Shown piece by piece: positions 4,093 through 10,664 of a stretch of DNA of 37,774 bases (positions within the stretch are counted from its first letter, which is position 1; each line of letters opens with the position of its first letter). The stretch lies in IMG/VR virus record IMGVR_UViG_3300005466_000381, positions 1 through 37,774 of that record. One strand, written 5' to 3'. Below the pieces are notes generated by a model. The model did no database searches. It had not been told where the DNA came from and saw only the letters and a list, made by a program, of their open reading frames with translations. Made by a program: the position numbers and the translations under genes. The stretch is from a virus.

Positions 4093-5997
4093 TCACCGCC
4101 GCCTCCCTCGGAGGATGCGCGCGATGGTGCCTTCTTCGACCGGGCCATCTTCTTGAGGCGTTTCGCCCAGCTGGAACTGGCTGAAGGCACGGGGGAGGGG
4201 CGTGTGAACGTCGAGCAGAGAGCTGATCGGCACAGAAGCCGTTGATAGGGGAGCCGCCGGACGCTGGGCGGCCGCGCCGCCTGCGGTACCGGAACCTTCT
4301 ATCGCCGCACCGGCTGGAGCCGCAGCGATCCCTCCAGGGCCGATCGAGCTTCCCGGGAGCGGCGTGGATTCCCGCACGGCGACCTTTCCGCCGCTGTAGT
4401 TCGGGCGCAGGATCGCCGAGACTGGCGCGGGACCTGCTGACACGGGAGACCGCGCGACTTCGTTGCCGAAATTCCCCGAGATCATTTCGCCGTTGCCGAC
4501 GTAGAGACCGATGTGCTCGCCGCTGAACGCGATCAAGTCGCCAGGCTTGGCCTTCGACAGATCGGTGCCGATGCTGTGGCCGCCCGACCATTCCGTTTCG
4601 AAGGAGGGGACGAAATTGGGGTTCGGTGGAAGTGGAATTCCGCGGCGAGCGAGCCCGTTGCTGACCCAGTTTGCGCACCACGGCTGACTGCCGCTCAGGC
4701 CCTCGTTTGAGGCCCAGCGAAGTTGCTTGGCAGATCCCTCCGGCGTCCCGAGTGCGGATTCCGCCCATTTCACCATTCCCCGCGCATCAGCGCGAACGTA
4801 GATCACGCCACCCCGACCGCGTTCAAGATCGCCGCCGGCGACTCGGGTCGGTATGCCGAGCTTTTTAGCCGCAACCTTTGCCGCGGCGAGCTGCTTTACG
4901 GCCTGCGGGTTCGGTGGCTTGACCTGAATCATGCCGAGGTCTTGAGCCACGCTGGACACGTTCGTTCCCCACCCGCTGTTGGCGAGAGCCGATAGGAAGG
5001 CTTGCGTGCCTTTGCCTTTCGACTGAGGAATGATTTGTTGGATGCTCGGCGCGGCGCGGTAGTTGAATTCGCCGCCCAGTTTGCCCCTCATCCAGGCCGC
5101 GGTAGCCCGAGCGGCGTCCTCCGGAGAACCGTTGAAGTAGGGCGACTGGCTGAACGGCGTTTGTTCGCCGGGGTAGCCGACGCCGAGCCAATTGTTCTTG
5201 CCGGCTTCCCCACCACTTATCCCAGTGCCGCCCCAGCCGCCCCCCTCCGCCTGGACCCAGGCCCCGATCGCCTTCGGGTCGATTCCGGTCAGTTTGGCGA
5301 GGGTGTTAGCGAAGCGCTCGGCTTGGGGACCGTGAGTAATGCCTTGGATCTGCCCAGAGCCGGAGGCTCTGCGGCGGGCCTGCGCGAGATCGCGCGCGGC
5401 TTGCCGCGTTGCTGGCACCGTGACCTTGCCGCCGCGGTTGACTTGGAGCGTGCCTTTTTTGGCTGCGCCGACAACCTGAGCGACAGTTGGTTTGCCAAGC
5501 GTTTTGTGGCCGAAGGCGTGAACTACTCGGTGGCTTGGGAACTCGGCTGCCGCTTTCACGCCTTCGGTTACGTCGTGACCAAGTGCCCTGGCCGCCTGAG
5601 AGACCCCATCTGCGATAAGCCCTGGCGCGCTGTGGGCCTTCGGCTTCACTCCGAGGGTGGAGGCAGCCTGAGCTATGTCGCGGGCCGTAGGGCCGGGAGT
5701 GATTAGGTCGGCGAGTCGGGAGAGGAGGTACTGGCTCGCCAAGGGATTCGGGCCGGTGCTACCTGGCGTTGCGGTGGCGGTCGAGCTTTCGTGCCGGATT
5801 TCTTGCTGGACCGGCGTTGGAGGAGCGCTCGGGTTGTAAGGCACCACAGGCGTCTTCGGCTGATAACCGGGGATCGACATATCCCCCGACGTGCCGCCGC
5901 TATGCCGGGACGGGGGAGGCGAGTTGCGAGGGCCCGCGGGCACCCCCGGCTGGGGCAGGCGGCCTTCGTGCATGCGCTGGCTGCGACGGGAGGGCAT
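4093..5997 (-). CDS. Virion-associated peptidoglycan hydrolase with shared N-terminal leader
   Basis: 634 residues. Residues 1-64 are a Pro-rich leader almost identical to that of the 1229-residue protein. Residues 220-345 look like a lysozyme- or glucosaminidase-type domain (KLTGIDPKAIGAWVQAEGG, GKNNWLGVGYPG). Residues 400-530 form an NlpC/P60- or CHAP-like amidase/peptidase: Cys441 in SQPWCANWVSNGLA and His495 in FSGEHIGLYVGNG are the expected catalytic pair. A Gly/Ala/Pro-rich tail follows. It probably cuts the cell wall during DNA injection, because it sits among internal virion genes rather than beside the holin. The start matches the leader of the larger protein residue by residue. The ribosome-binding site is weak, consistent with coupling to the TGATG overlap. 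Confidence 0.75.
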   Translation of the reverse strand: MPSRRSQRMHEGRLPQPGVPAGPRNSPPPSRHSGGTSGDMSIPGYQPKTPVVPYNPSAPPTPVQQEIRHESSTATATPGSTGPNPLASQYLLSRLADLITPGPTARDIAQAASTLGVKPKAHSAPGLIADGVSQAARALGHDVTEGVKAAAEFPSHRVVHAFGHKTLGKPTVAQVVGAAKKGTLQVNRGGKVTVPATRQAARDLAQARRRASGSGQIQGITHGPQAERFANTLAKLTGIDPKAIGAWVQAEGGGWGGTGISGGEAGKNNWLGVGYPGEQTPFSQSPYFNGSPEDAARATAAWMRGKLGGEFNYRAAPSIQQIIPQSKGKGTQAFLSALANSGWGTNVSSVAQDLGMIQVKPPNPQAVKQLAAAKVAAKKLGIPTRVAGGDLERGRGGVIYVRADARGMVKWAESALGTPEGSAKQLRWASNEGLSGSQPWCANWVSNGLARRGIPLPPNPNFVPSFETEWSGGHSIGTDLSKAKPGDLIAFSGEHIGLYVGNGEMISGNFGNEVARSPVSAGPAPVSAILRPNYSGGKVAVRESTPLPGSSIGPGGIAAAPAGAAIEGSGTAGGAAAQRPAAPLSTASVPISSLLDVHTPLPRAFSQFQLGETPQEDGPVEEGTIARILRGRRR

Positions 5998-6143
5998 CAG
6001 CTCGCGCTACCCTTTTCCGGCATGTGGGGCGACGTGGACACTCCGTTTTGGATCAAGCTGGGAGCCGGCGTGCTGACTATCGCCGTCCTCGTCTGGATGG
6101 GACTCTGGGCCGCTGCTCTATTTGGTCCGGCTCTATAGGTCAT
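5997..6143 (-). CDS. Possible 48-aa bridging ORF
   Basis: The frame starts with an ATGA overlap on the stop of the 1229-residue gene and ends with a TGATG overlap on the lysin start, so it fills the gap exactly. The product is polar and rich in Ser, Thr and Pro, with no recognised family. A competing plus-strand frame, 6022-6138 (38 residues), encodes a convincing membrane helix (IKLGAGVLTIAVLVWMGLWA) and ends one base from the 1229-residue gene's stop. It has no ribosome-binding site. I favour the minus frame on coupling, but only slightly. Confidence 0.35.
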   Translation of the reverse strand: MTYRAGPNRAAAQSPIQTRTAIVSTPAPSLIQNGVSTSPHMPEKGSAS

Positions 6144-9829: not shown

Positions 9830-9833
9830 GGGT

Positions 9834-10664
9834 CTATCCCCTGCCGGGACCGGGCACGCCGGGTTGAGGCAAACGGCCTTCGTGTTCCTTCCGTTTGCGG
9901 TCGGATAGGAGCTGCTGGATGACGTGGTTAATTTCGGCAAGGCCGAACCCGTCGTATTGCTTCTCCAAGCCCGCAGCGAAGCTGAGCCACTGTTCCTTCG
10001 TGCGAAGAGGATTCAGTTGTCGGAGAGGAATTTCTTCGCCTTCGGACCCTTCCACCATCGGGTTCTTCGCCCATGCGGCGAGTGCGTCCTTGAGCGCGAG
10101 CTTCGCGTTCTCAATACTGGTCGGGTCAAACTGCCCGTCGCCGTGTTCTTCGGCTTCGGCTTCCCGCTTTGCCTGCTGTTCCTTGAGGTACCCGGAGGCG
10201 GCGGTCCGACCTTCCTTGAGGAGTTGGTCGAAATCTTCAGCGACGCCCTTCTTCATTTCGCCCCGGTCCTGCGCGAGCTGCTGCTGAGCTTCGGTCATCG
10301 CGGTCGAACGCTGTTCGCGAGCGTCGCTGAGCAGGAAGGGAATCGCGGAGGCGGCATCGCCTTGGCGCGAGCTGAGCTCGTTGACCGCCTGCCGTAGATA
10401 GGAACCGGAGAGACCTGATGCCTTAAGACCGCGGAGCGCCTGCGCCAGCATGTCCTCCGTCATCGAGGCAGCGCCCTGCACAGAACTCGCTTCCCGACCG
10501 TAGGCGCGGTTGGCGATCCCGAAAGCCTGCTTGTCAGCGGCAATCACTGGTGCGTACTCGCGCTGGTTTGCCTTTCTGGCCCTCCGGTGCAGGATGCGGC
10601 GCTCGCGGGGCGAGAGTTGGGCGGTATGCAGTTCCTTCGTGCCGACCGTCGGGATGCGAGCCAT
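9834..10664 (-). CDS. Helical internal virion protein with C-terminal HEGRLPQPGVP motif
   Basis: 276 residues, nearly all helical and charged, with long Glu/Lys/Gln runs (EAQQQLAQDRGEMKKGVAED) and no enzyme motif. The last 16 residues (HEGRLPQPGVPGPGRG) repeat the core of the leader found at the N-termini of the next two large proteins. The gene starts by overlapping the 310-residue gene at base 10664 and ends four bases before the next GTG. Like its neighbours it is probably packed inside the particle or forms part of the ejection machinery. This is inferred from position and the shared motif. Confidence 0.65.
   Translation of the reverse strand: MARIPTVGTKELHTAQLSPRERRILHRRARKANQREYAPVIAADKQAFGIANRAYGREASSVQGAASMTEDMLAQALRGLKASGLSGSYLRQAVNELSSRQGDAASAIPFLLSDAREQRSTAMTEAQQQLAQDRGEMKKGVAEDFDQLLKEGRTAASGYLKEQQAKREAEAEEHGDGQFDPTSIENAKLALKDALAAWAKNPMVEGSEGEEIPLRQLNPLRTKEQWLSFAAGLEKQYDGFGLAEINHVIQQLLSDRKRKEHEGRLPQPGVPGPGRG

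Follow-up and report, generated by a model that had tools for sequence, protein, structure and literature searches.

Address tags on head proteins are already known in T4 and P1: the internal proteins of T4, whose bodies diverge, share an N-terminal capsid targeting sequence (CTS; PMC9026906), which is portable and lets the phage line load varied proteins (PMC9026906, PMC5694885), and the first 30 residues of P1 DarB suffice for head loading of an injected protein (PMC9024508). Among podoviruses, loading of the ejection proteins of P22 depends on scaffold (PMC8402733), and SU10 gp20-24 leave the head at infection, with gp20 having transglycosylase activity (PMC9509320). How podoviruses gather diverse proteins at the portal before DNA packaging is poorly understood. 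Encapsulin cargo-loading peptides, which are short and mostly C-terminal, route different cargo into an HK97-fold shell; encapsulins are not a phage ejection system, and their likeness to the tag described here, as short terminal routing peptides, is one of description. A review of ejection proteins reports no such tag (PMC8954989), and our search of the open-access literature found no shared multi-copy tag, at either chain end, on podovirus ejection proteins and lysins. A tag common to three putative ejection proteins, as described below, makes the question of how they are gathered directly testable; it could also point to injected proteins of uncultured phages that have gone unrecognised, and laboratory systems could use it to bring proteins of choice into podovirus heads.

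The window, by which we mean the whole 37.8-kb virus record analysed here, matches parts of a 47,071-bp IMG/VR contig with full identity from end to end; this contig appears to be circular, ~86 bp being common to both its ends. Among the window genes, Pfam recognised SU10_MCP (capsid, 2.6e-36), SU10_portal (8.2e-9) and SU10_adaptor (9e-18), and the gene order (terminase, portal, small gene, scaffold-like gene, capsid) is that of SU10; by these families and this synteny, the window is that of an SU10-type podovirus. The phages that carry the tag are uncultured soil phages, and none of the isolate phages searched was close to the window phage. Elsewhere the window encodes an ArsR-like helix-turn-helix protein (703-1329), a GH25 endolysin (1916-3163), a Toprim protein (28823-29425) and an N6/N4 DNA methylase (34159-35289), all on the minus strand, and a 637-aa fibre-like gene (11821-13734, minus strand) holds ~20 copies of a 30-nt repeat.

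The tail genes are followed downstream by four minus-strand genes, for proteins of 310, 276, 1229 and 634 aa (Table 1), which we take as a putative ejection-protein module because of their position and of the peptidoglycan-cutting domain in the 634-aa protein. SU10 has the same capsid, portal and adaptor families and the same gene order, and there too the ejection set ends the structural genes and includes one muralytic protein. Given the SU10-type genes and synteny, the tagged proteins are most likely ejection proteins, and from their synteny with SU10 gp20-24 we infer that they would sit inside the head and be released at infection. Across the group, the peptidoglycan-cutting domains found in the lysins and fusions are NlpC/P60, Phage_lysozyme2, and VanY or M15. 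The 276-aa protein is modelled as a long helical hairpin, with its tag disordered beside confidently predicted helices; for the 1229-aa protein, AlphaFold gave a model too poor to use (mean pLDDT 39.9), and searches of the PDB by sequence, and by fold for the 276-aa model, gave no useful match.

Table 1. Positions in the window of the putative ejection module, its leader copies and the structural genes discussed in the text.
Feature	Positions	Strand	Remarks
634-aa virion-type lysin	4093..5997	-	NlpC/P60 domain; putative ejection protein
Whole 64-aa lysin leader	5806..5997	-	
Module B of lysin leader	5848..5907	-	residues 31-50, RHSGGTSGDMSIPGYQPKTP
Module A of lysin leader	5923..5973	-	residues 9-25, MHEGRLPQPGVPAGPRN
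1229-aa large internal protein	6140..9829	-	putative ejection protein; without Pfam or PHROG family
Whole 64-aa leader of 1229-aa protein	9638..9829	-	GTG start 9829
Module B of 1229-aa leader	9680..9739	-	residues 31-50
Module A of 1229-aa leader	9755..9805	-	residues 9-25
276-aa long-helix protein	9834..10664	-	C-terminal tag; putative ejection protein
Module A at 276-aa protein C-terminus	9837..9887	-	EHEGRLPQPGVPGPGRG; predicted disordered
310-aa neighbour	10664..11596	-	same gene module; untagged
SU10-type adaptor protein	16161..17132	-	
SU10-type major capsid protein	17419..18600	-	
Scaffold candidate	18629..19363	-	so placed because it lies between the portal and capsid genes; candidate binding partner
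SU10-type portal protein	20180..22099	-	candidate binding partner

An earlier, sequence-only reading of the window had noticed that the 1229-aa protein and the lysin begin with nearly the same 64 residues, and our comparison bears this out, with identity at 57/64 residues and 154/192 nucleotides; its further statement that nothing obvious is shared after residue 64 has to be amended, as the likeness runs on to about residue 70 (BLAST 1-70, 86-87%). The 276-aa protein does end with the core of the leader, as had been claimed, and a blind DNA repeat search recovered the leader repeat independently (family D2). For the 1229-aa protein, the GTG start at 9829 is favoured over a longer TTG-started frame (9940) because of a Shine-Dalgarno-like match in gcAGGGGatagacccGTG and because homologues have the same start. 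A reading of the repeat in another frame (TKAVCLNPACP, zinc-ribbon-like) was ruled out, the other copies showing no conservation there.

The lysin and 1229-aa leaders differ by 25 silent and 7 residue-changing codons, third positions hold 28/38 of the nucleotide differences, and the pair gives dN=0.087 and dS=0.84 (NG86; dN/dS ~0.1); 38 changes placed at random replaced ~25 codons (minimum 17, 3000 trials) compared with the 7 observed. Neither chance nor recent neutral copying therefore explains the likeness; the latter was the counter-case that the sequence-only reading had named. Over 23 copies, the conserved codons of the tag agree at 0.96, 0.95 and 0.44 for positions 1, 2 and 3, respectively, and module A (defined below) is under protein-level, purifying selection. 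We considered whether the conserved unit is instead a signal in DNA or RNA, for example one that acts in recombination, packaging or translation, as the direct repeats near gene starts and the junction copy adjoining a ribosome binding site would allow; however, third codon positions are 44% identical against 95-96% for first and second positions, and because of this pattern we reject a DNA element and regard any nucleic acid signal as scarcely credible.

The 64-aa leader, proposed as one unit, is shared as such in the window, but it really consists of a ~17-aa tag, module A (EHEGRxxQPGVPxGPRN), and a separable module B (SGGTSGDLxIPGYxPxTP), which are found apart in other phages. The HEGR motif of A occurs without B in L013, L039, L040, L041, L042, L043, L044, L045 and L046. 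In L006, the large protein and the lysin both start MPTSxxFSxGYK... and carry SGGTSGDLxIP... only, and the 276-type protein retains a C-terminal motif A. Module B behaves like A; copies of it stand in the L014 lysin and, in partial form, in that of the L050 phage. A third leader module, VPYAPTPxGKAAE, occurs in one or two copies, with or without A, at the large-protein N-termini of L041, L048, L050 and L097.

We surveyed module A with protein searches and with two scans of 2.9 million viral contigs for its DNA pattern. It was found in 14 separate lineages of phage, namely the window phage, L005, L010, G002-G010, G012 and G013, so that the leader, far from occurring once in nature, is present in at least 14; most phages were collected through the tag itself, and the frequency of the tag among them is therefore biased. 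In whole-record searches, every strong match to A lay at a chain end, and the reversed pattern gave zero matches. One window tag used as query matched 15 proteins in 15 other phage records, all terminally, compared with a mean of 0.017 matches for scrambled tags (60 tags). Large proteins, lysins and fusions of the two carry it at the N-terminus, and the upstream-encoded 276-type protein carries it at the extreme C-terminus; in L014, a C-terminal A stands on an unrelated 387-aa protein that occupies the 276-type place. The carriers are thus putative ejection proteins and lysins only, tagged at their termini. No isolate searched for the tag gave a match. A genome_contigs scan for host origin gave 10 matches, which lack the GPRN tail, mostly fall in implausible frames and look accidental, and a pattern match in G011, in an unrelated short frame, was likewise judged to be chance.

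Three tagged proteins are present in each of the window and G004 (where the C-terminal copy is EHSGRSYQPGVPLGPRVQPFE) and two in G009, and the copy number of A on one chain ranges from 1 to 3 (three in the L044 large protein, two in the L044 lysin and two in the L046 large protein). We did not find a clear tag on the L014 large protein, the L046 lysin or the 276-type proteins of L044 and L046, and the 310-aa protein was untagged in the records searched. Six phages were found by homology of the protein bodies: L013 and L014 carry A, L049 carries B, the L050 phage has the partial B of its lysin, and genomes L048 and L097 showed no A and, where searched, no B. Where strong matches occur in the phage records, they cap such proteins at their termini, but the tag is not universal; because some relatives lack both A and B, it is replaceable.

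The tag is conserved as an island. Between the window and the large proteins of L043, L044 and L046, it is 65-76% identical, the next ~105 residues are 14-23% identical and the body is 38-53% identical; the tag of the L014 387-aa protein is 90% identical over 20 aa to that of the L041 large protein, with no other likeness between the two chains. About 16 positions are conserved in the tag. Such an island, with scrambled third positions and, in the 276-aa model, with predicted disorder, shows the behaviour of a short linear binding motif. Leaders also change on similar bodies: the L041 large protein has A plus VPYAPT repeats, and those of L048 and L049, with bodies 59-60% identical to it, have VPYAPT repeats only or B, so leader turnover is independent of the body. 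In L006, the lysin has a VanY/M15 catalytic domain instead of NlpC/P60 and its leader remains alike. L007, L013 and L042 have large protein and lysin fused in a single chain of ~2000-2150 aa. Close to the N-terminus of each such chain stands a single module (B in L007, A in the other two), and the start of the lysin part carries none; large proteins and lysins that are not fused usually have a module each.

Module B in the window's large protein is of the lysin type, which is not so in the orthologues of that protein in L005, L006 and L010, and copies within one genome have therefore probably exchanged sequence by gene conversion, which may account for part of the 57/64 identity but not for conservation between phages. 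This exchange, together with the spacing of 82 nt at the 276/1229 junction, which resembles the tandem spacing of 81 nt in L044, is what could be expected if the copies were a by-product of recombination, either a neutral linker spread by duplication or gene conversion or the relic of a gene split that left tandem copies flanking the junction. We consider this very improbable, given dN/dS of ~0.1 and the retention of the same peptide across bodies that are 25-50% similar or have no detectable similarity; neutral spread may account for the origin of the copies, but not for their retention.

We propose, with a probability of roughly 0.6, that module A is a portable docking tag that loads ejection proteins into the procapsid of this SU10-type group or holds them there. 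Its placement at termini, restriction to one gene module, portability, variation in copy number and occurrence once per fused chain support this proposal. The tag would bind one structural component on behalf of all its carriers; the scaffolding protein and the portal's inner face are the likeliest, and are the first candidates because of the T4 CTS, the loading peptide of P1 DarB and the scaffold need of P22. During procapsid assembly, the three carriers (large internal protein, lysin and helical protein) would thereby be gathered at the portal vertex, with module B having the same or a neighbouring job and being able to substitute for A. The common address suggested by the sequence-only reading therefore stands up, in that the tag is confined to termini, to one module and to sequence under selection, although sequence does not tell apart loading by procapsid or scaffold, docking on the portal and assembly of an ejected channel. 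More tentatively, and at somewhat less than even odds, we suggest a new modular system among podovirus ejection proteins, in which short interchangeable tags (A, B and perhaps VPYAPTPxGKAAE), working at either chain end and present once to three times, would attach injected proteins of unrelated sequence to a single virion component and so let tagged cargo be exchanged as the phages evolve.

Removal of the leader at head maturation, as a propeptide or through a cleavage site, had also been suggested, and we find it the weakest of the three earlier proposals because the motif is long, tandemly repeated and also C-terminal, and because none of the window genes tested with Pfam came out as a prohead protease. 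In T4, gp21 cuts off the leaders of internal proteins (PMC9026906), and the window leaders are likewise terminal and disordered-looking; but a protease site would hardly have ~16 conserved positions, occur in tandem and stand at a C-terminus as well, and in the part of the window genes scanned, those between portal and capsid included no prohead protease by Pfam, leaving cleavage very improbable. The main rival reading, unlikely too but less so, is that the tag acts after ejection, as a clasp joining its carriers to each other or to the tail nozzle in a trans-envelope channel, or by touching the host cell wall. The same set of proteins would then require the tag, a single tag would suffice on a fused chain, and the predicted hairpin of the 276-aa protein is of a kind that could form a channel; constant partners, however, need no terminal, disordered, repeated peptide for contact, and the bodies of the carriers differ widely.

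As a docking tag, module A resembles the CTS of T4 (IPI, IPII, IPIII and Alt) in being a short terminal peptide common to several proteins with differing bodies. The CTS is 10-20 aa, N-terminal only and removed by the protease gp21, whereas the tag is ~17 aa, N- or C-terminal, in one to three copies, with no protease found and in a different phage type, and the two are likened by description only. For the P1 Dar proteins, no common consensus was found by the authors (PMC9024508), in contrast to the clear consensus in three proteins of the window. Podovirus ejection proteins taken for comparison were SU10 gp20-24, T7 gp14-16 and P22 gp7/16/20; examination of SU10 gp20-24 for a shared tag revealed none, only gp21 and gp22 being alike, and the tag is therefore a feature of this phage group and not of SU10-type phages.

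Other leaders common to proteins within the records are mainly receptor-binding-protein-like N-terminal anchors and ordinary paralogues. Neighbouring receptor-binding-like pairs share ~66 N-terminal residues, probably a folded anchor domain (G002:C1:23055-24512 with 24751-26469; G009:C1:7992-8822 with 8829-10196), and G007:C1:43570-52313 holds three tandem paralogues of ~950 aa that are 46-55% identical. The C-termini of the large proteins (window ~6143-6220, minus strand; L040, L043-L046, L048-L050 and L097) carry lineage-specific short tandem repeats (VDYGKVFSG, SFGESWANR, GQYSSG, NKYxxG and GYMKGLG), mostly with an aromatic residue in a Gly/Ser-rich tail, and these are perhaps a second docking element. 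Finally, lysins of different catalytic type (window ~4096-4137, minus strand; L006, L044 and L046) share a conserved helix-like C-terminal tail, which reads EEGTIARILRGRRR in the window, EEEGIIQQLIARRV in L044 and ETEGAIARILAARRLV in L046.
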